A stretch of DNA of 64,000 nt from Rhizobium sp. Pop5. Its GTDB lineage: Bacteria > Pseudomonadota > Alphaproteobacteria > Rhizobiales > Rhizobiaceae. Location of the stretch: assembly GCF_024721175.1 (NCBI RefSeq), contig NZ_CP099400.1, positions 124,001 through 188,000 of the forward strand, given 5' to 3'. A model generated the notes under the pieces. The model worked only from the letters and a program-made list of their open reading frames with translations, was not told where the DNA came from and searched no databases. The position numbers and the translations under genes were made by a program. Below are positions 7,060 to 30,729 of the stretch, piece after piece (the stretch's first letter is position 1; the number at the start of each line of letters is the position of its first letter).

Positions 7060-7095
7060 GATAGCCACACCCGAGGAACGCGGGGCGTGGCTATC
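7060..7095. terminator. Hairpin between convergent prc and GGDEF-EAL genes
   Basis: GATAGCCAC (7060-7068) pairs perfectly with GTGGCTATC (7087-7095), and a further CCC/GGG adds to the stem. It lies 11 bases past the prc stop and overlaps the last codon of the convergent GGDEF-EAL gene. No long T-run follows on either strand, so it may be a weak or bidirectional terminator. Confidence 0.55.
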
Positions 7096-14157: not shown

Positions 14158-16062
14158 TTATTTCGGTTGAGCCGGCTTCAGCTTGACCATCATCAACCTG
14201 GAGTTCGCCCAGTTCGGCACCGGATCCGTATAGGGGTCCTTGATCGTCGGATAGCCGGTCCAATAGGTCGTATCCATCGAGGTGAAGACGTTATAGGACA
14301 TGAGCGGGATCGTCGGCATTTCGCGGGTGACCAGCTTCAGATAATCCTTGCCGAGCTCCATGCCCTTCGGATCGTCCGCACTGATGCCGCGGATGCTCTC
14401 GATGATCTTGTCGAGCTCCGGATTGGACCAGCGCTGCCAGTTGCGCGGCGGCTGAACATCACCCTTCTTCGCCACGAACTGGGAGTGCCAGCTGTCGAGG
14501 AAGAAGGAGAGGTCGGGATCGCCGCCCCAGGTTTCGACGCTCCAGGCGATCGCCACCTGGAAATCGCCGGGCTGCAGCGCCGTCTGCCAAAGTTTCGCGG
14601 CGGGCACGGCTTTGGCGTCGATACCGAAGGCCGCCCATTGCTGCGCGATCAGCGTGCCGGCGCGGGTGAAGACGGAGCGAGTATCGCCTTCGACCGTCAT
14701 TCGGATCTTGAAGGGCTGGCCGTCCGGAGTCAGCCATTTGCCGCCGGATTTCTTGAAGCCTGCCTTTTCCAGAAGTTCGCCGGCCGCTTTCGGGTCCGGT
14801 TTCCACCAGCCATAGCCGAAGGCACCGCTGATCGCCTCCGGATCGGTCGGGATCTGGTCCTTGAACTTCGGCTGCTTGCGCAGGATATCGGCGATCTGTT
14901 GCCCGACTGTCGGGTCATAGGGCTTGATCTTGCTCTTGCCGGTATCGATCTCGAAATTCTTCAGCCAATCCTGCATCGGCGCCTGATAGTCTTTCATCGT
15001 AGCGGCCGTCGGCGGCACGCCGAGCGCCGAAAGCGTCGCCGCCCCGCGGTAGCTCGCCATGTCGACTGCCTTGATGTCGATCAGCAGGGCCAGCGCCCAG
15101 CGTACATCGGCATTGTCGAAGGGCGGATTCTGGGTGTTGAAAATGACAGCCGGCAGCGTCGGATCCGGATGGGCGAAGGGGAAGCCCGGGAACCAGGTGT
15201 CGATGGTCTTCGACTTCTCCTTGAGGGTGAACATGCCCTCCGGCGTATTGTCGTGGATGATATCGAGATTGTGCTCGAGCTGGGCGATCGTGCGCTTATC
15301 CGGCGGGCCGGGATCGGTATAGGTCACATATTTCGGGGCCGGCTCGCCGAAGCGGGCGAGCGAGGTGCGCTGCCAGTCGTCGCGCTTCTCCCAGGTATAC
15401 CATTTGCCCTGCGGATCGTAGGCCTTCAGCTTGTAGGCGCCGAGCGAGACGGGATTGGCGAAATCGTAGCGAAGCGGATCTTCGACTTTCTCGAAGACGT
15501 GCTTGGGCATGATCCAAGCGCCGTTCCAGCGAACGGTGAAGATGGCATGGAAGCGCGAATTCGGCTTCTTCAGCTTGAACACCACGGTCTGGGGATCGGT
15601 CGCCTCGACGCTTGCCACCTGCACCGAGAAGGCCGCACTCCAGACCATGCCGGGGTGATCCATCTGCGTCTTGACGGTATAGACCACGTCGTCTGCCGTG
15701 AATTCAACGCCGTCGCTCCAGTAGAGCCCCTTGCGCAGTTTCACGGTCATTTCGGTGAAGTCGGCATTATATTGCGGCTTGTCGGCGGCGAGCGAATTGT
15801 CCCAGGCCGCGCCGCCAAGCCCTTGTTCGGGGTCGATATACCAGAGTGTATCCATGGTCAGCTGCTGCAGGCCGGTCGACACGCCGCCGCCGCCATTGAC
15901 CCAGATGTTGAACCAGCCGGGATTTTTGATCGTCCCTTCCGGATTTTCGACGATGAGCGTCTCCTTGCGTGGCAAGGAGGTGTAGTCATCGGCCTTGGCG
16001 GCGGCGGCCAGACTAAGTGCGGCCAGCGCGACGCCGAATGCGAGCCTCTTCCACTGTTGCAT
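14158..16062 (-). CDS. ABC importer periplasmic solute-binding protein (SBP_bac_5 family)
   Basis: A periplasmic binding protein of 634 residues. ATG 16062 is preceded by GGGAGGAG, which excludes a longer frame starting at 16116. The signal peptide is MQQWKRLAFGVALAALSLAA followed by AAAKADD. The mature part matches the peptide/nickel family (GLYWSDGVEFTADDVVYT is the family's typical signature) but is longer than the usual ~530. Members of this family also bind oligosaccharides, and the neighbouring GH51 enzyme suggests arabino- or xylo-oligosaccharides here. It is 180 bases downstream of the GH51 gene, in the same direction. Confidence 0.9.
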   Translation of the reverse strand: MQQWKRLAFGVALAALSLAAAAKADDYTSLPRKETLIVENPEGTIKNPGWFNIWVNGGGGVSTGLQQLTMDTLWYIDPEQGLGGAAWDNSLAADKPQYNADFTEMTVKLRKGLYWSDGVEFTADDVVYTVKTQMDHPGMVWSAAFSVQVASVEATDPQTVVFKLKKPNSRFHAIFTVRWNGAWIMPKHVFEKVEDPLRYDFANPVSLGAYKLKAYDPQGKWYTWEKRDDWQRTSLARFGEPAPKYVTYTDPGPPDKRTIAQLEHNLDIIHDNTPEGMFTLKEKSKTIDTWFPGFPFAHPDPTLPAVIFNTQNPPFDNADVRWALALLIDIKAVDMASYRGAATLSALGVPPTAATMKDYQAPMQDWLKNFEIDTGKSKIKPYDPTVGQQIADILRKQPKFKDQIPTDPEAISGAFGYGWWKPDPKAAGELLEKAGFKKSGGKWLTPDGQPFKIRMTVEGDTRSVFTRAGTLIAQQWAAFGIDAKAVPAAKLWQTALQPGDFQVAIAWSVETWGGDPDLSFFLDSWHSQFVAKKGDVQPPRNWQRWSNPELDKIIESIRGISADDPKGMELGKDYLKLVTREMPTIPLMSYNVFTSMDTTYWTGYPTIKDPYTDPVPNWANSRLMMVKLKPAQPK

Positions 16063-16241
16063 GAACTCCTCCCTAGAAAGCGACGATACGGCGGCCGCTA
16101 AGGCACGCATGGGCACGTCGCGGTTGTCGGTTCGCAGAAGCCGGAGCTTGGCAGCTCGAGGCCTTGGTGAACCATCCCTCCGGCCCGCCTGCCTCCTCGC
16201 AGTCGAGCCGAATTCTCAGCCGGGTTATCCGGCGGCGGCTG

Positions 16242-17750
16242 TCACACCGACAGCCTGATGACGTTGTAGGACAGCGGCTTCAGAGCTGCCCGCACCCGTC
16301 CGTCCTCAATCTTCGCGCTCTCGACCTTTGCGGGCACGACCGTCTCCGGCCGCCGCGCCGTGTTGACGGCTTCGAGATCGCCATGGGTCATTTCCACCTG
16401 CTCGATCAGGCGGGCGGCCCCGAAGCCTTCCAGCCGCACGTCGAGATCGAGCGCACTATCCGGATGGCGGTTGACGGCAAAGAAGGTCAGGCTCCTGCCG
16501 TCTTCGGATTGGACTGCCGAGACGTCGAGATAGGGAACCTCGTTCTCCTCGTCGCTATCATAGGTCGGGCCATCGACAACAAGCTGCAGCGCCGAGCCGC
16601 GGCCATATCGGGAAGCGTAGTAGAACGGGTAGTAAATCGTCTGGCGCCAGGCCGCACCGCCGTCCTCGGTCATGATCGGGGCGATGACGTTGACGAGCTG
16701 GGCGATGCAGGCGATGCGGACGCGGTCGGAGCGACGGATGAAGGTGTTCAGGATACCGCCGACCTGCAGCACGTCCTCGAAATTATAGACGTCTTCCAGC
16801 AGGTGCGGCGCATCCGGCCACTCGTCGCGCGCCAGGATCTCCTTGTCCTGCTGGTTGGAATGATACCAGACGTTCCATTCGTCGAAGGAAATGCCGATCG
16901 TCTTTTTCGAGCGCTTTTTCGCCTTGATGTAGTCGATCACGCCGCCGATCGTAGTGATGTAGCGGTCAAGCTTCGTCGCGCGGGCGAGGTAGTTCAGCGT
17001 ATTTTTCTCGCGATTGGCGAAATACATATGCAGCGAGATATGGTCGGCGCTGTCATAGCATTGGTCGAGGACTTGGGCCTCCCAATCGGGATAGGTCTTC
17101 ATATCGGAATTGGACGAGCCGCAGACCACGAGTTCGAGCGATTTGTCGAAGCCGCGCATGGCTTTCGCCGTCTCGTCCGCCAGCCGGCCATATTCATAGG
17201 CCGACTTGTGGCCGACCTGCCAGGGACCATCCATCTCGTTGCCGAGGCACCACAATTTCACATCGTGCGGATTGGCCCAGCCGTGCTTGCGGCGCAGATC
17301 GGAATAGTAGGTGCCGCCGGGATGATTGCAATATTCCAGGAAATTGCGGGCCGCATCCAGGCCGCGTGACCCGAGATTGACCGCGAGCATCGGCTTGGTG
17401 TTCGCCTTCTTGCACCAGTCGACGAATTCATTGACGCCGATCTGATTGGCTTCACGGGTGCGCCAGGCAAGATCGAGGCGAACCGGGCGCTCCGAACGCG
17501 GGCCGACGCCGTCCTCCCAATTATAGGCCGATACGAAATTGCCGCCGGGATAACGGCAGTAGGGCGTATCGAGCTCACGCACCAGATCGAGCACGTCGCG
17601 GCGGAATCCGTCCTCGTCGGCTGTCGGATGTCCGGGCTCATAGATGCCGCCGTAGATCGCTCTGCCGAGATGCTCGAGAAACGAGCTGTAGAGCCTGGAA
17701 TCAATGGTCGCGATGCGGAAATCGCGGTGGGCAACGACACTCGTCTTCAA
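16242..17750 (-). CDS. GH51 alpha-L-arabinofuranosidase
   Basis: It removes terminal arabinofuranose from arabinan or arabinoxylan fragments in the cytoplasm; there is no signal peptide. The catalytic acid/base Glu lies in WCLGNEMDGPWQ and the nucleophile Glu in ISFDEWNVWY. About 502 residues matches GH51 enzymes (~500). I chose TTG at 17750 because GGGAGG sits six bases upstream and relatives begin near MKTSVVAHRDF; a second TTG at 17774 would leave that ribosome site inside the gene. Upstream is a dedicated regulator and downstream the importer, giving a sensing-uptake-hydrolysis unit. Confidence 0.93.
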   Translation of the reverse strand: MKTSVVAHRDFRIATIDSRLYSSFLEHLGRAIYGGIYEPGHPTADEDGFRRDVLDLVRELDTPYCRYPGGNFVSAYNWEDGVGPRSERPVRLDLAWRTREANQIGVNEFVDWCKKANTKPMLAVNLGSRGLDAARNFLEYCNHPGGTYYSDLRRKHGWANPHDVKLWCLGNEMDGPWQVGHKSAYEYGRLADETAKAMRGFDKSLELVVCGSSNSDMKTYPDWEAQVLDQCYDSADHISLHMYFANREKNTLNYLARATKLDRYITTIGGVIDYIKAKKRSKKTIGISFDEWNVWYHSNQQDKEILARDEWPDAPHLLEDVYNFEDVLQVGGILNTFIRRSDRVRIACIAQLVNVIAPIMTEDGGAAWRQTIYYPFYYASRYGRGSALQLVVDGPTYDSDEENEVPYLDVSAVQSEDGRSLTFFAVNRHPDSALDLDVRLEGFGAARLIEQVEMTHGDLEAVNTARRPETVVPAKVESAKIEDGRVRAALKPLSYNVIRLSV

Positions 17751-17961
17751 CGGATCCTCCCGTTTATATATCAAGAATTTTGTTTTCTTGCCTCTAACTT
17801 GATATCAGGAATGTCGTTCTGTCAATCGAGTCCCTTATTTAATCATACTAATACAAAATTTAAGGAAAAATATTTTATAACAATAACTTGTATAAGATTA
17901 ACGGTCGCTGAAATCGGAAATAAATGAAGTTTTTAAATCAAGATATCCGATATTGATTTTT
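17751..17961 (-). promoter_or_regulatory. AT-rich control region of the GH51/importer operon
   Basis: This stretch is far more AT-rich than its surroundings. On the minus strand TTGACA (17825-17820) is followed by TATCAA (17804-17799), spaced 15, with the palindrome TGATATCA (17800-17807) overlapping it. One copy of the 9-mer ATCGGAAAT lies at 17913-17921; two more copies form an inverted repeat in front of the regulator gene. A small hairpin-like ATATCCGATAT overlaps the regulator's 3' flank. Promoter and operator roles are inferred from position and motif sharing. Confidence 0.45.
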
Positions 17962-18885
17962 TCAGACATGCAGCCGCATGATGATGTCGCGGCCGTGATT
18001 CCCGAAGCCGCGGCCGAATATGTTCACCCCGCCGGTATGGCCGGCATTCTCGGCGATGCCGACCCGCAACCGAATGGACGAATGCTGGCCGAGCGCCAGG
18101 TCGCCGAGCGTGATATTCGACGCGGCGACACCGTCGATGAAAGTCCCGCGCGTCGAGATCCGCCACGTCTTCATCATCCCATATTGCGAGCCCTCGAGCT
18201 TCCACCATGCCGGCGTGAAGGCGCCGCGCTTGTCGCCGTAATCGCCGGGCGACGTCCAGGTGCCGATCGCCATGCCGTTGACCCAGAGCGTGATGTCGGA
18301 GGGCCAGTCCGCATTGGTGCCGGGCACCTCGGACGAGAGCTCCAGCGAAAATTCGATGGCACGGATGTCCTTGTTCAACACCTTGGCATTATTGGGGAAT
18401 TTATATTCCACATAGCCCCGACCGAACCAGACGAGCCCGGCCTGCATGCGCTGCGGATCAAGGAAATAGTCGGGCACGTCGAGCGGGCCGATGACGCTCT
18501 CGGTGGAGCAAAGACCACAGGGCGCATGGACGTCGCAACTGGTGTAGAGCCCCACAGGCATCTCGACTTCGATGATGTTGTTGGCTCTTTGGGCGGCACT
18601 TTCCTCGAAGCTGATCAGAATTTCGCTGTAGATTGCCGAGCAGATTTTCTGGTTCCCCTTCCGAGCCTTCGCCAGCTGGGAGTCGACCAGCCGGGCGTCT
18701 TCCAAGATCTGGATACCGGTCGCGACGGTGGATTGGGGGAGGGAAAGAGTGCGCGCGATATCGTTGATATTCATCGGTCCTTTGGCGCAGAGCAGCTTGA
18801 GTATCTCAACCCGTGCCGGAGCCGAAAGCGCGCGTATTGCATCATTATTCTCGCCGGCGGCAATCGTCAAAAACGAACGTTCCAT
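17962..18885 (-). CDS. HTH regulator with C-terminal beta-rich ligand domain
   Basis: The first ~85 residues form an ArsR/winged-helix DNA-binding domain (LSAPARVEILKLLCAKGPMN, then NDIARTLSLPQSTVATGIQI). The remaining ~220 residues are beta-rich, with many Trp and Gly, and resemble a sugar-recognising sandwich (SLELSSEVPG, DITLWVNGMAIG, WRISTRGTFIDG). A Cys cluster, C117-x5-C123-x2-C126, joins the two and could bind a metal. Simple ArsR proteins are ~100 residues, so this is a one-component fusion. It is transcribed toward the GH51/importer operon and probably controls it. Confidence 0.82.
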   Translation of the reverse strand: MERSFLTIAAGENNDAIRALSAPARVEILKLLCAKGPMNINDIARTLSLPQSTVATGIQILEDARLVDSQLAKARKGNQKICSAIYSEILISFEESAAQRANNIIEVEMPVGLYTSCDVHAPCGLCSTESVIGPLDVPDYFLDPQRMQAGLVWFGRGYVEYKFPNNAKVLNKDIRAIEFSLELSSEVPGTNADWPSDITLWVNGMAIGTWTSPGDYGDKRGAFTPAWWKLEGSQYGMMKTWRISTRGTFIDGVAASNITLGDLALGQHSSIRLRVGIAENAGHTGGVNIFGRGFGNHGRDIIMRLHV

Positions 18886-19998: not shown

Positions 19999-21288
19999 TC
20001 AGTGCCCGGTCGGCTCGGGCTGTAAGTCCGCATCCGTCAGTGTCCCCAGGAAAGCGACGATGTCGTCGATTTCGGGGTCGGTCAGCGCCGGCGCATCTCC
20101 GGGTTTCCTGCCGAAGGGCGGGTCCTGGTTGACATTGTCCCAATAGGCTTGCGGCAGGTCGTCATATCGCTGGACCGTGCCGTCGGCGTTGCGAGGATAC
20201 CAGCGGCCGGAGTCGCTGTCGCGGGTCGCGTAGAAGGAGACGACGTCGCGCAGCGTGTGGAAATAGCCATTGTGGAAGAAGCTCTTCTTCAGCGCGACGT
20301 TGCGCAGCGTTGGCGTGCGGAACAAGCCGCAATATTCACTGTGCCCGGCCAGGTCGGTACGCTGTGGGCCGCAGAGGCCGAGGTCGTGATATCCAGGGTC
20401 GGCATTGGCCGGGATCGCCATGTTGCGGGGGGCTGCGAGGGCGAGGAAGCCGAAATCGGAAAAGAGCGGCGGCTCGCCGTCATTGGCAGGTTCGCTCAGG
20501 TGACAGCTCGAACAGTTGCCCTTGGCCGGGTCCTCGAACAACTGTCGGCCGTGCAATTCCTGCGCCGTCAGCGTCGCCTTGCCGGCGAGGAAGGCGTCGT
20601 AGCGGCTGGAATAGGGATAGAAGTCCGGGCCGCTTTGCTCGAAGGTGGCGAGTGCCTCGGCGGCGGCGGCGAAAGTATCCGCGGGGTTGTCGAACACCGT
20701 CTCGCCGAAGGCCGCCTTGATGGCGTCGGCATAGGGCGCCCTGCGCAGTTTCGCCGCGACTTCGGCCGCATCCCTGTTGCCCATCTCGAAGGGTGAGAGC
20801 AGCGGGATCTTCGCCTGGTCGGCGCCGTGATCGACCCGGCCGTCCCAGGTGAGGCCGCCCGTCGGGCCGTTGTCGACGCTTTCGTCGCCCTCGTCCTCGG
20901 AGTCGTAATAATGCTCAGTGAACGCAGGCATCGATTGCAGATAACGCAGCGTCGGAACGGCGCGCAGGCCCGGCTGGTTCATATCCTTGCCGCCCATCTC
21001 GACCGGTTTGGCCGATGCTGGGCCGAAGGCGTGAGCGGGATCATGGCAGGACGAGCAGGCCCGGAGGCCTGAGGCCGACAGCGAGGGATCGAAGAAGATT
21101 TTGCGGCCGAGCGCAGTCAGCGTTTCGGCCCGGGCGAAGGCCTCGGCGCGTGACATCGGTCCTGGATGGACGCCGGCAGCGGCGGCCGCGCTGCTTTGCC
21201 GCAGCGGCGGAATGGCCACACAGAGCGCCGCGGCACCCAGGCTGACTGCCAAACCGGAGCGCAGCAGCCAGAACGTCTTTGTCGACAT
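19999..21288 (-). CDS. Diheme cytochrome c peroxidase (CcpA/MauG family)
   Basis: A periplasmic diheme c-type cytochrome that reduces hydrogen peroxide or oxidises another protein. An N-terminal signal/anchor (WLLRSGLAVSLGAAALCVAI) is followed by two heme-binding motifs, CSSCHD and CSSCHL, in the two expected domains. The 429 residues are longer than classical CcpA (~330), with an insert containing DSEDEGDESVDNG before the first domain ends, as in larger MauG-like relatives. It is divergent from the phosphoesterase gene, with a shared 170-base promoter region. Confidence 0.9.
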   Translation of the reverse strand: MSTKTFWLLRSGLAVSLGAAALCVAIPPLRQSSAAAAAGVHPGPMSRAEAFARAETLTALGRKIFFDPSLSASGLRACSSCHDPAHAFGPASAKPVEMGGKDMNQPGLRAVPTLRYLQSMPAFTEHYYDSEDEGDESVDNGPTGGLTWDGRVDHGADQAKIPLLSPFEMGNRDAAEVAAKLRRAPYADAIKAAFGETVFDNPADTFAAAAEALATFEQSGPDFYPYSSRYDAFLAGKATLTAQELHGRQLFEDPAKGNCSSCHLSEPANDGEPPLFSDFGFLALAAPRNMAIPANADPGYHDLGLCGPQRTDLAGHSEYCGLFRTPTLRNVALKKSFFHNGYFHTLRDVVSFYATRDSDSGRWYPRNADGTVQRYDDLPQAYWDNVNQDPPFGRKPGDAPALTDPEIDDIVAFLGTLTDADLQPEPTGH

Positions 21289-21366
21289 GATAAGAATTCC
21301 AATAGCTTAGGCCTATTTTCCTTCATGATCGAACCTCGTTGCAACAAATTGATGACGGCCGCCTCG

Positions 21367-21384
21367 CTGTAACCTTGATGTCAC
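21367..21384 (+). promoter_or_regulatory. Candidate Pho box
   Basis: CTGTAAC-CTTG-ATGTCAC fits the PhoB recognition pattern of two CTGTCAC/T half sites separated by four bases, with one mismatch in each half. It is 78 bases upstream of the phosphoesterase start and in the same orientation. The assignment is by pattern only. Confidence 0.5.
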
Positions 21385-21461
21385 AATGTTGATAGACGGC
21401 GGGAATAGCGTCGGTGCGCCCCCGAGCGTTTCCCGCTCCCTCTAGCCAACGCCCCCTAGCC

Positions 21462-23021
21462 ATGAGGTCTCTACCCGTGAAAAGACTGAAACTCCTCAAC
21501 GCCCTCTGCCTCGCCGGATCGGCCATGATGCCGCTCGCGATAGTGACGGCAGCCCATGCCGCACCTGCCGGTTACGACAAGATCGACAATATCGTCGTCA
21601 TCTATGCCGAAAACCGTAGCTTCGATAATCTCTATGGCGGCTTCCCCGGCGCCAACGGTCTCTCCAATGTCACCGCTGACCAGGCGCGCCAGCTCGACCG
21701 CGACGGGCAGCCGCTTGCCGAACTGCCGCCGGCCTGGGGCGGCCTGACCGCCAAGGGCGTGACGCCCGCCGTCACCGAGGCCCAGTCGGCCCATCTTGCC
21801 AATGCCAGCTTCGCGATCGACGATCCCAAGGGTTTTGCCCAAGCGCCCACGGTCATCACCCGCGATCTCTGGCACCGCTTCTATCAGGAGCAGATGCAGA
21901 TCGACGGCGGCAAGAACGACAAATTCGTCGCCTGGGCGGATTCCGGCAGCCTCGTCATGGGCCATTATGACGGCTCCATCCTGCCGATGTGGCAGGTGGC
22001 GAAGAAATACGTCCTTGCCGACAATTTCTTCCAGGGCGCCTTCGGCGGCTCCTTCCTCAACCACTTCGCGCTGGTTTGCGCCTGTGCGCCCTATTACCCC
22101 GACGCCGACAAGAGCCCGGCCAAGCCGGTGATCGCCAAGGTCGATGCCGACGGCACGTCGCTTGTTGTGGCCGACAACGCCCCGAAGTCGGCGCTCGACG
22201 GCGCCCCGAAATTCGTCTCCGACGGCACGCTGACGCCCGATTTCTACGCCGTCAACACCATGCAGCCACCCTATCAGCCGAGCGCCAATCCGCCGGCCAA
22301 GGACGGTGATACCGCCTTGGCCGATCCGGCAGCGGCGACGACACTGCCGCCGCAGCATGCGATCACCATCGGCGATCTGCTGTCGCTGAAAGGCGTCAGC
22401 TGGGCCTGGTATAGCGGCGCCTGGCAGGCGGCGCTGGACGGCAAGAACGCCACGCCGGTACCGAACTTCCAGTTCCACCATCAGCCGTTCAACTATTTCG
22501 CCAATTTCGCGCCCGGCACGCCGGCGCGCGCCGAACATCTGAAGGACGGCGGCCTTGCCGGCGAAGCCTTCCTGAAGGATATCGACGCGGGCAAGCTGCC
22601 GGCCGTTTCCTTCTACAAGCCGCAGGGCAACCTCAACGAACATGGCGGTTATGCCGATGTGTCGAGCGGCGACCAGCATCTTGCCGATATCGTCTCGCAT
22701 CTGGAAAAGAGCCCACAATGGGGTCATATGCTCGTCATCGTCACCTATGACGAGAATGGCGGCTTCTGGGATCATGTCGCGCCGCCGAAGGCCGACCGCT
22801 GGGGCCCGGGCAACCGTATTCCCGCCTTCATCATCTCGCCCTTCGCCAAAGGCGGCACGATCGATCATACCCAGTACGACACGACCTCCATCATCCGCCT
22901 CATCACCGCGCGCTACGATCTGCCTGTCTTGCCCGGTATCGTCGCCCGCGACGAGGCGCTGCGCACCAACGGCCAGCCGCCGATGGGCGACCTGACCGCT
23001 TCGCTCGACCTGACGCATTGA
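21462..23021 (+). CDS. Secreted phosphoesterase / acid phosphatase (PF04185 type)
   Basis: A periplasmic phosphoesterase of the phospholipase C/acid phosphatase AcpA family. A signal peptide (LLNALCLAGSAMMPLAIVTA then AHAAP) precedes the signature IYAENRSFDNLYGGFPGANG, which holds metal-binding and catalytic residues. Further motifs are TYDENGGFWDHVAPP and NRIPAFIISPFAKGG. The length of ~519 fits. The start is uncertain: ATG 21462 and GTG 21477 (with GAGG nine bases upstream) are both plausible, and a GTG at 21414 is too far from the signal peptide. A Pho-box-like site suggests induction by phosphate starvation. Confidence 0.9.
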   Translation: MRSLPVKRLKLLNALCLAGSAMMPLAIVTAAHAAPAGYDKIDNIVVIYAENRSFDNLYGGFPGANGLSNVTADQARQLDRDGQPLAELPPAWGGLTAKGVTPAVTEAQSAHLANASFAIDDPKGFAQAPTVITRDLWHRFYQEQMQIDGGKNDKFVAWADSGSLVMGHYDGSILPMWQVAKKYVLADNFFQGAFGGSFLNHFALVCACAPYYPDADKSPAKPVIAKVDADGTSLVVADNAPKSALDGAPKFVSDGTLTPDFYAVNTMQPPYQPSANPPAKDGDTALADPAAATTLPPQHAITIGDLLSLKGVSWAWYSGAWQAALDGKNATPVPNFQFHHQPFNYFANFAPGTPARAEHLKDGGLAGEAFLKDIDAGKLPAVSFYKPQGNLNEHGGYADVSSGDQHLADIVSHLEKSPQWGHMLVIVTYDENGGFWDHVAPPKADRWGPGNRIPAFIISPFAKGGTIDHTQYDTTSIIRLITARYDLPVLPGIVARDEALRTNGQPPMGDLTASLDLTH

Positions 23022-23112: not shown

Positions 23113-23871
23113 TCACCGGCGCAGCAGCGGCCGCAGCGCGGCCTGAGTTTCCTTCAGCAGCTTGAGATAACGCTCCTTCATCTCCGCGGCCGGGACGAGG
23201 GCGGCCGGCGCGCCGATATTGATCGCCGCCACCGTTTCGCCGCGGTCGTTGTCGATCGGCACGGCAATGGAGCAGAGGCCGATTTCCAGCTCCTGATCGA
23301 TGATGGCGTAACCCTCGGCGCGGACGCGGCGGAATTCGGCAATGAGTTCGTCCGGGTCGGTCCTGGTATTTATCGTGTTTTGCTTCAGCTCGCTGCGGGC
23401 CAGGATGGCGCGCGCTTCGTTCTCGGTCAGGGCAGCAAGGAGCACGCGGCCCATCGATGCGCAGTAGGCGGGCAGGCGGCTGCCCGGAGTGAGATTGATC
23501 GACATGACGCGGCGCTGCGAGGCGCGGGCGATATAGACGATTTCGGTGCCGTCGAGCACCGAGGCCGAGGCGCTCTGGCCGGCTTTCTCCGAGAGAAGAT
23601 CGAGATGCGGCTGCAGTAGCGCCGGCAGCGGCGTGGCGGCGAGATAGGCATGGCCAAGCCGCAGGATCTTCGGCGTCAGCGTGAAAAACTTGCCGTCGTA
23701 ATCGGCATAACCCAGTTCGGCGAGCGTCAGCAGCGAGCGGCGCACGGTAGCGCGGTCAAGATCCGTCAGCTTGGCGGCCTCGGCGATGGACAGCCGCTGG
23801 CGCGTTTCACCGAAAGCTTCGATGACTTTCAGGCCGCGGGCGAAGCCGCTGACAAAATCCGTTTCGCGCAT
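23113..23871 (-). CDS. pcaR: IclR-family regulator PcaR
   Basis: A 252-residue IclR-type regulator. The N-terminal winged helix (RLSIAEAAKLTDLDRATVRR) is followed by an effector domain with PGSRLPAYCASMGRVLLAAL and ELEIGLCSIAVPI. The opening MRETDFVSGFARGLKVIEAF is typical of the PcaR/PobR/PcaU branch, which senses beta-ketoadipate or aromatic acids. Its usual target, pcaIJF, lies 6 kb to the right in the opposite orientation; in other rhizobia the two are normally adjacent and divergent. Here the phazolicin cluster separates them. The symbol rests on subfamily and context. Confidence 0.87.
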   Translation of the reverse strand: MRETDFVSGFARGLKVIEAFGETRQRLSIAEAAKLTDLDRATVRRSLLTLAELGYADYDGKFFTLTPKILRLGHAYLAATPLPALLQPHLDLLSEKAGQSASASVLDGTEIVYIARASQRRVMSINLTPGSRLPAYCASMGRVLLAALTENEARAILARSELKQNTINTRTDPDELIAEFRRVRAEGYAIIDQELEIGLCSIAVPIDNDRGETVAAINIGAPAALVPAAEMKERYLKLLKETQAALRPLLRR

Positions 23872-24003
23872 CGGTATTGTTTCTGCTCTTTCGACGTTTT
23901 TCCGAGGCAGAACCTCGCCGAGGTTTCTATAGGGGAATTCGAACCGTGCATCACTTTGTTTCGGAGATCTGCCCCAATTGATTTGTCCATGTCCGCCTGT
24001 CGA

Positions 24004-25776
24004 TCATTTGGAAGCAAACGACAAAGGTTCAGCCCATGTTGCCGCCGGCCCGCTGCTGTTAAAGCTCCGATATTCGTCGCTCGTCGCCAGAACTTCTCTG
24101 TGGGATCCGGTGAAATGACGTCGATCCGGCGCAAGAAACAGAACTTGGCTATCCGCATCGAGCAGGGACAGATCATGCGTGACGAAAACCGTCGTGCATG
24201 TCTGCTGCAACTCTGCGATGGCTTCCAGCACCCGCTTCCGGTTCGCTTCGTCCAAGGCAGCGGTGGGTTCGTCCAGGACAAGCAGCCGCGGTTTGGCGAG
24301 CAAGGCACGCGCAAGCGCGACACGTTGCTTTTCGCCGCCCGACAGGCGGCTTCCCCGTTCGCCGACCGTCGGTTCTCCGAGGTCCTGATGGCGGCGGACG
24401 ACTTCGTTCAGGCCGAGCTTGCGGATGACCAGTTCGATCTCCGCCGGTGATGCGTCGACGCCAAAAGCAATATTCTCGGATATCGACCAGTCGAACAGCA
24501 AGCAATCCTGCTGCACGACGCTGATGCTTGGTCTGAAGAGACCGGCATTCTGTTCGCCAACCCTGGTTCCGTCGATCAGATACTCACCGCCATCCGGAAC
24601 GGAGAGGCAGGAGATGACTCTTAACAAGGAAGATTTGCCGACTCCCGATTGGCCGACGATATAGAGCTTTGCCCCGGCCGCGACGGAGAAGGACAGATCT
24701 TCAAGCAAGGCATTCTCGCTGACGGTCACGGAAACACCGGATAGCTGCAAGGACATCGGCGATCGATCTCCGCGATCCGACCGGAGGTGAGGTGCCGGCA
24801 CCGGCACGGACAGGAGATCCATAAGCAATCTCGCTTCCCCCAGCGACGAATTCACTTCGCGGTAGACACGCGCGAAAGTCTCCACAGGCTGCAGGAGACG
24901 GATGATGTAGGTGTTTAGAAGCACCAGATTGCCGATGCTCATGGCTCCCTCGGAAACGTCAGAGGCCCCGCGCCACAGGACGCCGAGCACAACGGCTCCG
25001 AAGACGAGCGCCTGCAGAACACCGAAAAAGGCTCTCTGTCTGAAGGTGACCGCCCAGGCTTTATCGTTGACCTTGAGTTTGAGGTTCAAGCGTTCCGTGA
25101 ATTCTTCGACCCTGTTTGCCTGTTGAACGAGTTCCGCGTTTGCGACACCGTCGAGCCCGAAGGTCCACGCTTCAATTCCGGTCTCCATCGCATTCTCTGT
25201 GGCCCCGCGGATTTTCGTCGCCGAGACATTGGCGATCGCCGCGTAGACGAACAGGGCGGAAAACAGCAGCAGCGCGATCCAGACGTCGATCATGAAGGCG
25301 ATGACCGATGCGGCAATCACCAATTCAATAAATGTAGGTATCAGGAAGAACGTCAGGTTGGAGGTTATTTCCCGGACCGCGTCCAGACCGCGCTCTACCG
25401 TCCTGCCGATCTCATAAGTCGTGTATTCCCTCAGCTTGCGATAAGGCAAGGAGAGGGCGTGATTGAAGACATGTGTGGTCAAATGCCTTTGAAGGCGCAG
25501 ATTCATCGGGCCGAAGGTCAGCCATTGAGCCTGTTCGAGAGCGCCGACGATCGTCAAGCCGATCCCGAAGGCGATTATGTAGCGAATACCTGGGCTCCCA
25601 CCAGAATTTCCCTCAGCCAGCGCATCGATACCTAGCGAGAAGAACACCGGAAACAGCGCCGCGCCGATCGCCGTAAGCGTTATAGTGCACAATACCAAGG
25701 CGAAGGATGCGCGTTGCCTGCGATTATTTAGAAGCATATTATTAATTACTCTGAATACGCTTTCAGATTTACCCAT
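24004..25776 (-). CDS. phzE: ABC exporter of the azole-peptide cluster (probable self-immunity)
   Basis: A half-size ABC exporter of 590 residues: six transmembrane helices in the first ~320 residues, then an ATPase with Walker A GQSGVGKSS, Q-loop VVQQD, signature LSGGEKQR, Walker B LLVLDEP and switch His VTHDLS. It is divergent from the precursor gene across a 186-base AT-rich region. ATG 25776 has GGAG eight bases upstream. It probably pumps the mature peptide out of the cell, which would also protect the producer, since no separate immunity gene is seen. The symbol follows the phazolicin naming as I recall it. Confidence 0.9.
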   Translation of the reverse strand: MGKSESVFRVINNMLLNNRRQRASFALVLCTITLTAIGAALFPVFFSLGIDALAEGNSGGSPGIRYIIAFGIGLTIVGALEQAQWLTFGPMNLRLQRHLTTHVFNHALSLPYRKLREYTTYEIGRTVERGLDAVREITSNLTFFLIPTFIELVIAASVIAFMIDVWIALLLFSALFVYAAIANVSATKIRGATENAMETGIEAWTFGLDGVANAELVQQANRVEEFTERLNLKLKVNDKAWAVTFRQRAFFGVLQALVFGAVVLGVLWRGASDVSEGAMSIGNLVLLNTYIIRLLQPVETFARVYREVNSSLGEARLLMDLLSVPVPAPHLRSDRGDRSPMSLQLSGVSVTVSENALLEDLSFSVAAGAKLYIVGQSGVGKSSLLRVISCLSVPDGGEYLIDGTRVGEQNAGLFRPSISVVQQDCLLFDWSISENIAFGVDASPAEIELVIRKLGLNEVVRRHQDLGEPTVGERGSRLSGGEKQRVALARALLAKPRLLVLDEPTAALDEANRKRVLEAIAELQQTCTTVFVTHDLSLLDADSQVLFLAPDRRHFTGSHREVLATSDEYRSFNSSGPAATWAEPLSFASK

Positions 25777-25880
25777 AATAACCGCTCCATATTTCGAATT
25801 TTATTGATCGATACAAGTGAATATCTAAGAATATTATTCTTGAACTCTCTTGATTTATACAAGGTATCACAAAATTTCTT

Positions 25881-25939
25881 CTTGACGAACGCAAAAATTG
25901 AAATAGTTTTGCTTTTGCAGCGTGGTGCTGCAATTTCAA
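25881..25939 (+). promoter_or_regulatory. Putative phzA promoter and structured 5' leader
   Basis: CTTGACG (25881-25887), close to the rhizobial -35, is followed after 16 bases by TAGTTT (25904-25909). Transcription would start near 25916, right at a hairpin: TTGCAGC (25915-25921) pairs with GCTGCAA (25927-25933). An outer pair TTGAAAT/ATTTCAA (25898-25904 with 25933-25939) encloses it. AGGAGG (25949-25954) sits eight bases before the ATG. A 15-bp palindrome AAGAATATTATTCTT lies further up at 25827-25841 and could be an operator. Confidence 0.5.
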
Positions 25940-25962
25940 CTCGCAAATAGGAGGTATGTGAA

Positions 25963-26130
25963 ATGACGACGCAGATTCTGAATCCGCCGCAGTTTGGCAC
26001 CGAAATCGAGTTCGTCGACGCGGGCGATTCCACGGTTCAAACGGCTGCGACTTGCGCACGTTGCGACAGCAGCAGCCGTTGCGGCGCCTCCGGCAAGTCC
26101 TCCGGTTCGGCCAGCTCGATTTCGACCTGA
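25963..26130 (+). CDS. phzA: Azole-peptide antibiotic precursor (phazolicin type)
   Basis: A 55-residue precursor peptide with an excellent ribosome site. The first 28 residues (MTTQILNPPQFGTEIEFVDA then GDSTVQTA) are the acidic leader; the last 27 (from ATCARCDSSSRCGASG to the C-terminal SIST) are the likely core. In that core, positions 3, 6, 9, 12, 15, 18, 21 and 24 are C, C, S, C, S, S, S, S: three Cys and five Ser in strict three-residue steps. Phazolicin is a 27-residue peptide with three thiazoles and five oxazoles, so this agrees. Arg and Lys residues make the core cationic, as expected for ribosome exit-tunnel binding. The cleavage point is inferred from the core length. Confidence 0.95.
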   Translation: MTTQILNPPQFGTEIEFVDAGDSTVQTAATCARCDSSSRCGASGKSSGSASSIST

Positions 26131-26142
26131 TAGACAACGGCT

Positions 26143-26159
26143 GGCCCCGATCAGGGGCC
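26143..26159 (+). promoter_or_regulatory. Intercistronic hairpin after phzA
   Basis: GGCCCC (26143-26148) pairs with GGGGCC (26154-26159) around the loop GATCA, 13 bases after the phzA stop. No T-run follows, so it is more likely a partial terminator or mRNA-stabilising element that keeps precursor mRNA in excess over the enzyme genes. Confidence 0.55.
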
Positions 26160-26187
26160 GCCACCTTTCACAACGAGGTTTGCAAAG

Positions 26188-27036
26188 ATGTTTTCGGTTT
26201 CCCCGTTCGTACTCAGTTCGGCGCCGGCGGATGGCGCATGGCAGCTTTTCACTCCGGTGGGTGCGGCGCGCATCACCGACGCAAATCTTGTCGCGGCCCT
26301 CGGCGAAATAAAAGCGCTCCGGTCTCGTGTTGACGAGGTGGAGATCGAAAAGATCCTCGAGAGGAAAACACTTCCGGTCAGCGCCGCCCAGCAGTTTCTT
26401 GAACGCCTGAAAGTGCTTCGAAAAGTCGAAGATATGAAAACAGTGGCGGTATTTTCGCCGTCCCAGACACTTGCCGATGATGTCGTGCAATTGATCCTTG
26501 ACCGCGACGCGGTCTCCTGCCGGGCATGCACGACCCTTTCAGATATCGCGGACGCCGATTTGATCCTGGCAATTCAGGATCGCTACGAGCCGGGGCTTGC
26601 CAAGGACATCTACGCCGCCTGCAAATCGAAGAGAGAGGCCATCCTGCTTCACTCCTATTTTGTTTTCCGGCATTTTATCATCGACGGCTTCTATTCGTCG
26701 GCCATCGATCTGCCCGACCATTTTAGCGGTATCCATAATCTCGCCGGACTTGACCGGTCGTCGAAATTCAAGCCCTCCAGTTGGGCCGACTATTTCTTCT
26801 CCGATCCCTATGCGATCGAAACGATGCATGTTCCGACCTTTCCGGCCGCCCAGATCGAAACGGCCGTCGCGCTGCATCTTGCTTACATGCGGCTCCGCCC
26901 CCTGATAGCGGACGGCGTATCGCCGCTTTTTCCCGACGATCTCAGCACGGTTATCGAGCTCAATCTCGACACAGGCCGTATCGAACGGCATCGGGGCGTC
27001 CATTCCAATTTCAGCTCGTCGCTGCGAGAGATTTAG
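26188..27036 (+). CDS. phzC: Cyclodehydratase partner protein (E1-like/McbB-like)
   Basis: A 282-residue protein between precursor and dehydrogenase. In LAP clusters this place is filled by the E1-like (ocin-ThiF/McbB) protein, which binds the leader and presents the core to YcaO. Supporting features are size, a central DADLILAIQD segment resembling the Rossmann-like part, and C-terminal ELNLDTGRIERHRGV, which resembles the end of such proteins. Only one CxxC (CRAC) is seen, not the usual two zinc-binding pairs, so it is a reduced member. GAGG precedes ATG 26188. The role is mainly inferred from context. Confidence 0.82.
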   Translation: MFSVSPFVLSSAPADGAWQLFTPVGAARITDANLVAALGEIKALRSRVDEVEIEKILERKTLPVSAAQQFLERLKVLRKVEDMKTVAVFSPSQTLADDVVQLILDRDAVSCRACTTLSDIADADLILAIQDRYEPGLAKDIYAACKSKREAILLHSYFVFRHFIIDGFYSSAIDLPDHFSGIHNLAGLDRSSKFKPSSWADYFFSDPYAIETMHVPTFPAAQIETAVALHLAYMRLRPLIADGVSPLFPDDLSTVIELNLDTGRIERHRGVHSNFSSSLREI

Positions 27037-27049
27037 GGAGGACTGTCAG

Positions 27050-27850
27050 ATGCGACACGTCAAGATATCCTCGGTGAACCAGATTTCACACGCCGGCCAG
27101 TTCGTTGATCCGGAGGTCGAAAGCGAGATCCGTGCATTTCATCAGCACTGCATTTCCGTTGCAGGTTCTCCGTTGGAGAACGCACTCAGCCAGCCTTACC
27201 TTTCCATCGAAGACCTGAAACGAGCGGAGACCTTCGAAACGCGGTTCTCCCACATTACCCGCACCATCGAGTTTCCCGATGCCTCTGTCGCCGACACGAC
27301 CTGGCGGTGGCCGTCGCTTGACAAAGGCGGCACGCGACCAATTGATTTCTCCACCGTTCACCAAATTTTTTCAGAAGCGCTTGGTGCCGATTACGCCAGA
27401 CGTCGGCCTTACCCCTCCGGAGGCGCCCTTTACAGCGTCGAGTCGGTTGCTATCCTGGGAAACGTCCTGGGAAACGTCGTGGGAACGGAAGAAGGCTTCA
27501 ACGTCCTTCATTACCTGCCGGTGAGCAACGCCTTCGAAATGCTTCGAGGCGGATACGATCCCACACTCTTCAATGAAATCTACAAGATCGAGCGCGCGGC
27601 ATTTTACGTCGTGTATTTCATCAATCTCAAGAAGGCGATCTTCAAATATCGTTCGCGCGGCTACCGCCTGGCCTTGATGGAAGTCGGGTCGATGTATCAG
27701 CAAATGCTGAGGGTCGCCCAAGACCATGGAATACGCTCCCGTGTCCTGTCGGGATTTTCCGAATACGCCCTTGCGAAAAACTGCGGGCTGGACAGCCGCG
27801 TTCTCCTGCCGGGGATCATCCAGGCCTTTGCCTATCCGGAGGAGAATTAA
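27050..27850 (+). CDS. phzB: SagB-type FMN azoline dehydrogenase
   Basis: It oxidises azolines in the modified core to aromatic thiazoles and oxazoles, using FMN. The 266 residues belong to the nitroreductase-like SagB/McbC family; the diagnostic motif is RRPYPSGGALYSVES near residues 118-132. The C-terminal half has the expected hydrophobic strands (AAFYVVYFINL) and the family's GYRLALMEVGSMYQQM, close to the usual YRxxLxExGHxxQ, with Ser replacing the common His. GGGAGG lies upstream of ATG 27050. Its TAA stop overlaps the next start as TAATG, so it is translationally coupled to the YcaO gene. Confidence 0.92.
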   Translation: MRHVKISSVNQISHAGQFVDPEVESEIRAFHQHCISVAGSPLENALSQPYLSIEDLKRAETFETRFSHITRTIEFPDASVADTTWRWPSLDKGGTRPIDFSTVHQIFSEALGADYARRRPYPSGGALYSVESVAILGNVLGNVVGTEEGFNVLHYLPVSNAFEMLRGGYDPTLFNEIYKIERAAFYVVYFINLKKAIFKYRSRGYRLALMEVGSMYQQMLRVAQDHGIRSRVLSGFSEYALAKNCGLDSRVLLPGIIQAFAYPEEN

Positions 27851-29022
27851 TGCAACGGTCATATCGCAGTTTTGCTTCCCGGACGCCGAGATATCGTGTG
27901 ACCCCTGCCTATCCCGCGAGCATCTTCGAACCGACGGTGTTCTCGGCCGATGATGCGAACGACCTCAATGGTCACGGATTTGGCCTTGGGCCAGGCGTCG
28001 CGGTCAAAGCCATGGGTGAGTATTTTGAACGCTATGCGGCGTTCCGCGCTGTGACCTCCCGCGGGATGGGTAAGATCGCCGAGATGCGGCTTGATCCGGA
28101 AGAGCAAGATGCTTTGGTTCTTGCGCTTCGCCAGACATGTCACGATGACGTGCGCGACGATATCGAGGCCGCGAGTTTTCGACTGGTCGAAGTAAACAGG
28201 CTCGGGGAAGACCGCATGGCTCTCTACCCAACCCTGCTTCTGTCATTGCACAGCTTCGACGAACAGAGAGACGTTCGCTTTGCTCCGGTCCGAGACAGCT
28301 CCGGATCGGCGATACATCCGGATAAAAAGACTGCATTTCAGGGCGCTCTGCTGGAATTTGTCGAGCGCCAATGCACGACCGCGATGTGGGTCTCGCGGCG
28401 CTGCAACGCTATCGAAGGTCTTGGCGCTGCGCTCAAGGACCGCAAGGCGCGCGCCATCCATGATCAGATGGCGATGGCGGGAAGCCTGAATGTTCTCGAC
28501 CTTTCGTTCTTGAAAGGCGCCAGCGTCAAGTTTTGCGAATACAAGTCGCAGGATCCGGATGCATTGGTGAATTTCTCCTGCGGCTGCTCGGCGGATTTCG
28601 ATCCCGATGCCGCCACGGCAAAGGCCTTTACCGAAGCATGGCAGACATCGCTTCTCCTCCCTCAGATGGAGTTCTTTGGAGCCCGAGAATATGGCAGCAC
28701 CTCTCTGAAGGATAATTTTCAGGCTGCGAACAGGGCAGGTTTCGAGTTGGGTGTCGGCGTCGATCCCAGGGCAATCGGAGCAGACGGAAACGACAGAAAC
28801 ATGGAGACGCTTGTGGACAGCATTCTTTCCGTATCCAGGAACGTCTATCTCTATTTCCGCAGCATCTATGTTGCCGGCACCAAGCTGCACTTCTGCCGCG
28901 TCGTGTCGCCGGATTTCTTCCTTCACATGAGCCCGGGCGACCATAACAACAACGACAACAGATGGATCGATCTGTTCTGCGAGAAAGCGTCCAGACGGCT
29001 GGAGCCCATGCCATTTTCATAA
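27850..29022 (+). CDS. phzD: YcaO-domain cyclodehydratase
   Basis: It uses ATP to activate the amide backbone so that Cys and Ser side chains cyclise to azolines. The 390 residues carry the YcaO ATP-binding pattern: KAMGEYFERYAAF (about 53-65) and ALLEFVERQCTTAMW (about 167-181), each with spaced Glu residues for Mg-ATP. The C-terminus ends EPMPFS, a degenerate form of the proline-rich tail that organises the active site of LAP YcaO enzymes. It overlaps the dehydrogenase stop by one base. It is the last gene before a strong terminator. No protease gene for leader removal is in the cluster; TldD/TldE elsewhere are candidates. Confidence 0.94.
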   Translation: MQRSYRSFASRTPRYRVTPAYPASIFEPTVFSADDANDLNGHGFGLGPGVAVKAMGEYFERYAAFRAVTSRGMGKIAEMRLDPEEQDALVLALRQTCHDDVRDDIEAASFRLVEVNRLGEDRMALYPTLLLSLHSFDEQRDVRFAPVRDSSGSAIHPDKKTAFQGALLEFVERQCTTAMWVSRRCNAIEGLGAALKDRKARAIHDQMAMAGSLNVLDLSFLKGASVKFCEYKSQDPDALVNFSCGCSADFDPDAATAKAFTEAWQTSLLLPQMEFFGAREYGSTSLKDNFQAANRAGFELGVGVDPRAIGADGNDRNMETLVDSILSVSRNVYLYFRSIYVAGTKLHFCRVVSPDFFLHMSPGDHNNNDNRWIDLFCEKASRRLEPMPFS

Positions 29023-29025
29023 CAA

Positions 29026-29048
29026 AGGCGGGGGAGCGACCCCCGCCT
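29026..29048. terminator. Terminator closing the phz operon
   Basis: AGGCGGGGG (29026-29034) pairs perfectly with CCCCCGCCT (29040-29048) around a five-base loop, three bases after the YcaO stop. A T-rich stretch follows about a dozen bases later. It can serve the rightward phz genes and the convergent MucR-like gene. Confidence 0.8.
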
Positions 29049-29059
29049 CCCTGTTCGCC

Positions 29060-29518
29060 TTATTTTGCTTTAGCTTGAGAGCGTTTTGAAACGGCGATGC
29101 CCAATCCTATGCTTTTTGCGATCGACGACCGTTTGGCGGCATAGGAGGGCGCGACCATAGGATATTCCGGCGGAAGGCCCCATTTGATGCGGTACTCGTC
29201 AGGCGTCAGGTCGTAATGGGTTTTCAAATGCCGCTTCAACGAACGGAATCGTCTCCCGTCCTCCAAGCAAATTAGGAAGTCCTTCTCGATCGACCGATCG
29301 ATAGGAACGGCTGGTTTTTGATGTGTGGTGGGTGCTCCTTCGGTGGCCAAGGCCAGTTCGGTCGGACGAGGTCCTTGACCCAGAGCGGCTTGCACGCTGG
29401 CGATGAGGGAAGGCAGATCCTGCATCGAGACATCGTGCCTGCCCACATAGGCAGTGACGATGTTCGCAGTCAGTTCGGTGATGTTCTCGGGTGCCGAATT
29501 TTGGGGTTTTGAGTACAT
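29060..29518 (-). CDS. MucR/Ros-family zinc-finger regulator
   Basis: A 152-residue MucR/Ros-type regulator. After an acidic N-terminal part (NITELTANIVTAYVGRHDVS) comes the zinc-finger region with CLEDGRRFRSLKRHLKTHYD and the typical TPDEYRIKWGLPPEYPMVAP. Zinc ligands are Cys and Asp (CLED) and two His, the same Cys-Asp variant seen in MucR. ATG 29518 (MYSKPQNS) is preferred over TTG 29545. It converges on the phz operon and is divergent from pcaI. It may be part of the inserted cassette; control of phz is plausible but not shown by sequence. Confidence 0.88.
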   Translation of the reverse strand: MYSKPQNSAPENITELTANIVTAYVGRHDVSMQDLPSLIASVQAALGQGPRPTELALATEGAPTTHQKPAVPIDRSIEKDFLICLEDGRRFRSLKRHLKTHYDLTPDEYRIKWGLPPEYPMVAPSYAAKRSSIAKSIGLGIAVSKRSQAKAK

Positions 29519-29893
29519 AAAATAACCCGTTGCTTCGAGAATCAACGCATCGCTTCGCAGGCGGGATGAGAGGAAGTTCTCATCGATCCCCTATTGACGA
29601 TGGTCAATTCAGCGAAATTGAACCTGCTGCTCGAGCCTGGCTTCCGATGAAGGAGCCGGACATAGAGCCGACGGCGACAAACGCTGCAGGCGCAGATTCA
29701 AATAAGGTTAGATCTCAAAAGTTCCTCCCGCGGTGTTCCCCCATAACAGGTAACAAAAAACCATGAACAATCAAGCGAGCGGTGAAAAAATTCAACGAAT
29801 GCGAGCAATTGCGGGCAACGCCAGAATGGCCTCGATTGGAGTGATGAGAGCGCAAAGCCATCAGGGCCGAATTTCGAGTCAACTCGTTCATTT
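29519..29893. other. Intergenic region left of pcaI, no gene seen
   Basis: About 375 bases upstream of both the MucR-like gene and pcaI. Small frames here have no ribosome site. The sequence probably contains the right-hand junction of the phz insertion and the promoter of the MucR-like gene, but I see no repeat that would mark the exact boundary. Confidence 0.3.
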
Positions 29894-29930
29894 TTGTGCG
29901 ATATACGAACAAAAATCAAATAACGCACAA
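29894..29930 (+). promoter_or_regulatory. Candidate PcaR operator upstream of pcaIJF
   Basis: TTGTGCGATATACGAACAA (29894-29912) is a near-perfect palindrome of two 10-mers (TATCGCACAA on the minus strand, ATACGAACAA on the plus strand). A third copy, TAACGCACAA, follows at 29921-29930 in direct orientation. Two inverted plus one direct 10-mer is the layout known for the related IclR regulator PcaU. It lies 92-128 bases before the pcaI ATG. Confidence 0.6.
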
Positions 29931-30021
29931 ATTGCTTGCCGACGAAGCCGCAGCACCCTATGCCTGACGCTGGAGGACGGGAGGACTGCGTTCCCGGCCG
30001 CATAGCCAAGGGAGGTCCCGC

Positions 30022-30729
30022 ATGGACAAGACAATCGGAAGCACCGCGCAAGCGGTCTCTGAGATCGGTGATGGCGCGACCGTGATGATCGGTGGTTTTG
30101 GTGGCTCGGGCGCGCCGATCGAGCTGATCCACGCTTTGATCGACAAAGGCCCGAGGAACCTCACCGTCATCAACAATAATGCCGGCAACGGACGCATCGG
30201 CATCGCTGCGATGATCGACGCCGGCATGGTCAGAAAGATGATCTGCTCGTTTCCGCGTTCGTCGGACCCGCGCGCCTTCACAGACAAATATCTGGCCGGC
30301 GAAATCGAGCTCGAACTCGTGCCGCAGGGCACGCTGGCCGAGCGCATCCGCGCCGGCGGAGCCGGCATTCCGGCCTTCTATACGCCGACGGCCTATGGCA
30401 CCGAACTTGCCGAAGGCAAGGTCATCGCCGAATTCGACGGCCGCCATTATGTGCAGGAGCGCTGGCTGAAGGCCGATTTCGCGATCGTGAAAGCCGAGAT
30501 CGGCGATACCCACGGCAACCTCACCTACAACAAGGCCGGCCGCAACTTCAACCCGCTGATGTGCATGGCCGCGGCCAAGACGATCGCCCAGGTCTCATCC
30601 ATCGTACCGGTCGGCGGCATCGATCCAGAACATGTGGTGACACCAGGAATTTTCGTCGACCGCCTCGTCGCTGTCCCCGATCCCCAACAGGAAGAAGAGC
30701 TCATCCGAGCCGGAGTGGCCTACGTATGA
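30022..30729 (+). CDS. pcaI: 3-oxoadipate CoA-transferase subunit A
   Basis: The alpha subunit of the enzyme that moves CoA from succinyl-CoA to beta-ketoadipate, the second-last step of protocatechuate degradation. The 235 residues contain the glycine-rich GATVMIGGFGGSGAP and INNNAGNG motifs of family I CoA-transferases. GGGAGG precedes ATG 30022. Its TGA overlaps the pcaJ ATG as ATGA, so the two subunits are coupled. A PcaR-type operator lies upstream. Confidence 0.94.
   Translation: MDKTIGSTAQAVSEIGDGATVMIGGFGGSGAPIELIHALIDKGPRNLTVINNNAGNGRIGIAAMIDAGMVRKMICSFPRSSDPRAFTDKYLAGEIELELVPQGTLAERIRAGGAGIPAFYTPTAYGTELAEGKVIAEFDGRHYVQERWLKADFAIVKAEIGDTHGNLTYNKAGRNFNPLMCMAAAKTIAQVSSIVPVGGIDPEHVVTPGIFVDRLVAVPDPQQEEELIRAGVAYV

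Follow-up and report, generated by a model that had tools for sequence, protein, structure and literature searches.

The stretch of DNA analysed here (64,000 nucleotides in full, referred to as the window; bases 124001-188000 of a 402,072-base replicon of Rhizobium sp. Pop5) carries the genes phzE, phzA, phzC, phzB and phzD and a Ros/MucR-type regulator gene in a block between pcaR and pcaI (Table 1). Rhizobium sp. Pop5 is a bean-nodule bacterium whose genome of 6,742,135 bases comprises five replicons, including those of 402,072, 503,518 and 951,562 bases, and whose smallest plasmid bears phzEACBDR (PMC9670871), the gene cluster of the azole peptide phazolicin, which was described in 2019 (PMC6783444). 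An earlier note on this DNA had proposed a complete cluster at 24004..29048, made up of a YcaO gene, a SagB-type dehydrogenase gene, an McbB-like gene, a 55-codon precursor and a divergent ABC exporter in the order E-A-C-B-D. All five genes lie where they had been placed, their family matches agree with the proposed functions, and their order is that of the published phzEACBDR; the sixth gene, phzR, lies outside the interval.

Table 1. Features of the phazolicin locus and its borders (positions in the window)
Feature	Position	Strand	Basis
pcaR (IclR/PcaR family), left neighbour	23113..23871	-	NCBIfam TIGR02431
phz block of about 6.0 kb (right edge uncertain by about 10 bases)	23876..29887		missing from the pcaR-pcaI gap of relatives
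phzE, ABC exporter of phazolicin, 590 aa	24004..25776	-	Pfam ABC_membrane + ABC_tran
AT-rich phzE-phzA gap, putative divergent control region	25777..25962		A+T content
phzA, precursor of 55 residues (leader 1-28, core 29-55)	25963..26130	+	NCBIfam NF038168
phzC, McbB/E1-like protein, cyclodehydratase partner	26188..27036	+	TIGR04424
phzB, FMN-type azoline dehydrogenase (SagB-type)	27050..27850	+	Pfam Nitroreductase
phzD, YcaO cyclodehydratase	27850..29022	+	Pfam YcaO
Hairpin between convergent phzD and phzR, likely terminator, better formed on the minus strand	29026..29048		folding
phzR, Ros/MucR-family zinc-finger regulator, sixth cluster gene by gene order	29060..29545	-	Pfam ROS_MUCR
37-base element from the gap between divergent pcaR and pcaI, here retained beside pcaI	29895..29931	+	exact pattern match
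pcaI (3-oxoacid CoA-transferase subunit A), right neighbour	30022..30729	+	identity to relatives

The precursor PhzA scored 114.1 bits (cut-off 33) against the NCBIfam model NF038168, 'phazolicin family TOMM bacteriocin', which bears out the view of the earlier note that the cluster is not a new class. Phazolicin consists of the C-terminal 27 residues of PhzA, is cut off between two alanines, carries eight azoles and has a measured molecular weight of 2362.8679 (PMC6783444). The Ala-Ala cleavage site of the precursor in the window is the published one, and its 27 C-terminal residues, after subtraction of 20.026 Da for each of eight azoles, have a computed mass of 2362.865 Da. A PDB sequence search with the precursor (E <= 0.1) returned a single match, which was phazolicin (6u48). 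The gene order E-A-C-B-D-R, compared with that of the published cluster phzEACBD(R) of Pop5 (PMC6783444, PMC9670871), is the same, as are cleavage site and product mass, and no difference was found. Precursors that are 91% (P0001) and 82% (P0002, from Rhizobium herbae) identical to PhzA are known, and a related cluster from another strain that encodes a variant peptide might resemble the one in the window; this is, however, very improbable given that the computed mass deviates from the published one by no more than about 1.2 ppm. The precursor model, cleavage site, mass and gene order make it virtually certain that the stretch is the published phazolicin cluster itself, with the published mode of action, where the earlier note had left room for a very close relative. 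A near-identity search of plasmid records with the cluster gave no match, but the genome of the window may have been left out of that collection, and the absence is not read as novelty.

Phazolicin and its cluster are thus already known: the cluster, the immunity conferred by PhzE, the complex with the ribosome, the requirement for phzD and the uptake of this narrow-spectrum antibiotic against rhizobia have all been published, as has its structure. What is added here is modest, namely that the cluster is a separate block, about 6 kb long, set into what is a short gap in most of the relatives examined, that a MucR-type regulator or a similar stretch accompanies all four clusters examined, and that the register of the azoles is kept.

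Comparison of PhzA with about 5.8 billion proteins yielded 11 relatives at E <= 0.01. The azoles of phazolicin are located at every third residue (PMC6783444), and all 13 precursors (the 11 relatives, PhzA of the window and the precursor of Mesorhizobium loti) carry a Cys or a Ser residue at positions 3, 6, 9, 12, 15, 18, 21 and 24 of the core, which are those modified in phazolicin; the azole register is conserved across the precursor family. The family is rare among 397 sampled genomes of the order, of which one, Pop5, passed the cut-off of NF038168. A weak match to the model in another genome (G202) was rejected as a family member, with a score of 23.4 bits, below the cut-off, and one internal stop.

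Among the modification enzymes, PhzC matched TIGR04424 with 239.3 bits (cut-off 65), PhzD matched Pfam YcaO with 73.8 bits (cut-off 25.7), and PhzB matched Pfam Nitroreductase with 32.8 bits (cut-off 23.5). The score of PhzB for the SagB model TIGR03605 was under the cut-off (63.5 versus 78.4 bits), as was that of PhzD for the SagD model of NCBIfam, as would be expected of divergent members. PhzD ends in a PxP motif (EPMPFS), the role of which is given in PMC7136475, and disruption of phzD abolishes mature phazolicin (PMC10128002). Going by the family matches, PhzD together with PhzC would cyclise Cys and Ser residues and PhzB would oxidise the resulting rings, so that the three enzymes likely put the eight azoles of the published product on the C-terminal 27 residues of PhzA.

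The klebsazolicin cluster klpACBDE resembles that of phazolicin in the kinds of enzymes and in the target, the exit tunnel of the ribosome (PMC6783444), and the genes in the window are of the kinds expected in a cluster for a peptide of the klebsazolicin or microcin B17 type. PhzD also matches YcaO genes on plasmids of Escherichia and Klebsiella, but these are only 25-26% identical (18 enterobacterial matches among those listed of 136 records). Klebsazolicin needs an X-X-(S/T)P motif at the N-terminus of its core, and phazolicin, unlike klebsazolicin, has no N-terminal amidine ring and binds farther from the peptidyl transferase centre (PMC6783444); the core in the window begins with A-T-C-A and lacks the motif. 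A peptide of either type is refuted by the match of the precursor to the phazolicin model and by the published product, and we give it a negligible probability, below even that of a variant peptide.

The mature peptide is exported by PhzE and plugs the ribosomal exit tunnel of competing rhizobia, which halts their protein synthesis. Cryo-EM on the E. coli ribosome places phazolicin in the exit tunnel by uL4 and uL22 (PDB 6u48; PMC6783444), and the peptide enters Sinorhizobium meliloti via BacA and YejABEF (PMC10128002). phzE confers self-immunity, raising the MIC in S. meliloti from 1 to >128 uM (PMC6783444). Pop5 has one uL4 gene, which encodes Lys65 and Gly68 (residues counted by eye), the two residues mutated in sensitive S. 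meliloti (PMC6783444), and its genome encodes a BacA-like importer (479 bits). The unchanged uL4 residues and the presence of the importer fit protection of the producer by PhzE export and not by an altered target, in agreement with the published view. Target-based self-resistance in Pop5 was considered and is not supported, as the sole uL4 gene retains Gly68.

The earlier note had taken gene overlaps and a terminator as signs of a single unit. The spacing is indeed operon-like (57 bp between phzA and phzC, 13 bp between phzC and phzB, and an overlap of 1 base between phzB and phzD), but the hairpin that follows phzD has a T-rich tail on the minus strand only (terminator scan, which overall was near chance with 9 sites versus 7.2 expected). 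Its folding energy is -21.3 kcal/mol on the plus strand (0 of 200 shuffles as good) and -23.6 kcal/mol on the minus strand (1 of 200). Because of the position of the tail, the hairpin is at least as likely to be the terminator of the convergent phzR.

The product of the Ros/MucR gene behind phzD scored 148.5 bits against Pfam ROS_MUCR (cut-off 25.4) and is 48% identical to the other Ros/MucR copy of the strain. From the gene order, we infer that it is phzR of the published phzEACBDR. Relatives of phzR are located 3' of phzD in all three other clusters examined, with an identity of 70% in R. herbae and of 51% and 48%, in two frames, on two Mesorhizobium plasmids; the two Mesorhizobium clusters have equal figures for E, A, C, B and R, and the three cases are therefore closer to two independent ones. 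MucR proteins are reported to be H-NS-like silencers with AT-rich targets (PMC10746212, PMC5693944). The gap between phzE and phzA has an A+T content of 67%, and promoter-like sites were found in it on both strands (consensus scan for sigma-70 sites only). Of 2059 overlapping segments of equal length across the 64 kb, six are as AT-rich as the gap, and three of these six overlap it. Judged from these sequence features, PhzR may act on the AT-rich promoter region of phzE and phzA. A second very AT-rich stretch, with up to 73% A+T in a sliding-window count, is located at 17733-17980 of the window.

A scan of genome contigs with PhzD matched R. herbae only (the genome of the window was possibly left out). 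The cluster of R. herbae HU44 (L001) has the same E-A-C-B-D-R order as that of Pop5, with identities (tblastn) of 78% for PhzA (41 residues aligned), 73% for PhzE, 74% for PhzC, 73% for PhzB, 66% for PhzD and 70% for PhzR. It differs in its surroundings: tests of phzR and of six ORFs next to the cluster showed domains of HEPN/nucleotidyltransferase, transposase, glyoxalase and RTX type among these seven, and pcaR and pcaI are without a match in its 17 kb locus. Mesorhizobium loti 582 (L046, CP050294.1) and M. huakuii 583 (L047, NZ_CP050298.1) have plasmid-borne clusters with the order E-A-C-B-D and a phzR-like stretch after phzD; their E, A, C, B and D share 52-64% identity with those of Pop5. 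In the core of the M. loti precursor, position 12 is Ser and position 24 is Cys. The matches to phzR are spread over two frames in both strains, as are those to phzD in M. huakuii. The three strains of this genus that were tested have been published as phazolicin-resistant. At 14758-16196 of the M. huakuii locus, at a distance of about 5.6 kb from where phzD ends, a LuxR regulator and an acyl-homoserine-lactone synthase are annotated.

The neighbours of the block in Pop5 belong to the beta-ketoadipate pathway of plant-aromatic breakdown. PcaR scored 333.5 bits against TIGR02431 (cut-off 284.75), and PcaI, which was named after the annotation in three loci (L034, L036, L037), is 94-96% identical to the pcaR-adjacent PcaI of the eight closest relatives (L009-L016). 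The names of the cytochrome-c peroxidase and acid phosphatase genes (19999-23021) that flank pcaR, in the order found on plasmids of relatives, were taken from the same three annotations. A PcaR relative (E <= 1e-80) was present in 26 of 41 genomes including Pop5, which leaves 25 other loci. In 20 of these, the divergent starts of pcaR and pcaI are 128-170 bp apart, compared with 6,150 bp in Pop5; in the other five (L017, L018, L026, L027, L031), no pcaI was found in the flanking sequence examined (about 1.5 kb). phzD had no match in any of the 25 loci, the flanks being short (about 1.5 kb). The plasmid comparison consisted of five loci taken from 195 plasmid records with a match, in all of which pcaR and pcaI lie side by side; the distance is 152-262 bp in four, and the raw value of 414 for the fifth (L035) is an overestimate, as its pcaR match begins at residue 86. 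In R. leguminosarum 3841, pcaR, pcaI, pcaJ and pcaF are the consecutively numbered genes pRL110286-pRL110289 (PMC4495286). The two genes are divergent neighbours in most of the relatives examined.

The blastn matches of the pca flanks to the five plasmid loci end at 23875 and restart at 29888-29894. The G+C content of the block is 55.4%, that of the adjacent 4 kb 63.9% (left) and 63.5% (right). The empty sites in relatives, the lower G+C content and the fact that the clusters of R. herbae and Mesorhizobium have other neighbours indicate that the block likely arrived between pcaR and pcaI by horizontal transfer. No direct or inverted word of at least 10 bases is shared between 23861-24010 and 29541-29960, and the stretch 29546-29900 had no match among the plasmid records. 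The placement between pcaR and pcaI is not mentioned in the available text of the phazolicin papers PMC9670871, PMC6783444 and PMC10128002, and the terms pcaR, protocatechuate and horizontal do not occur in the main text of PMC6783444.

A 37-base pattern, drawn by eye from the aligned pcaR-pcaI gaps of relatives, has one match in the window at <=3 mismatches and none in 100 shuffles. The exact element was present in 23 of the 47 loci compared; two of these 23 (L002, L040) are Pop5 itself, leaving 21 loci of relatives: 13 of the 20 genome loci in which pcaR and pcaI are adjacent, all five plasmid loci, and three of the five loci in which no pcaI was found beside pcaR. These last three (L017, L018, L027) raise the possibility that it is pcaR to which the element belongs. 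pcaR of Pop5 lacks the element and is located 132 bp behind the stop of phzE on the same strand; in these 132 bp, the scan (sigma-70 consensus sites only) gave neither terminator-like nor promoter-like sites, and folding is ordinary (z 0.84). It is conceivable, if rather doubtful, that the block rewired a catabolic switch, in that pcaR was cut from its divergent element, put behind phzE and transcribed together with the immunity gene, with the silencer PhzR linking phazolicin production to the use of root aromatics. In this case, a regulator of beta-ketoadipate breakdown would be read together with antibiotic immunity in Pop5, which would offer a simple test both of how root chemistry and production are connected and of the way in which clusters of this kind become established in nodule bacteria. 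In Agrobacterium, the role of PcaR has been predicted from homology only (PMC12285266). Elsewhere in the window, two cyclic-di-GMP enzymes are encoded at 3396-4373 and 7091-9334, one with a GGDEF domain only and one with the domains CHASE-GGDEF-EAL, and a gene for a tail-specific protease lies between them.
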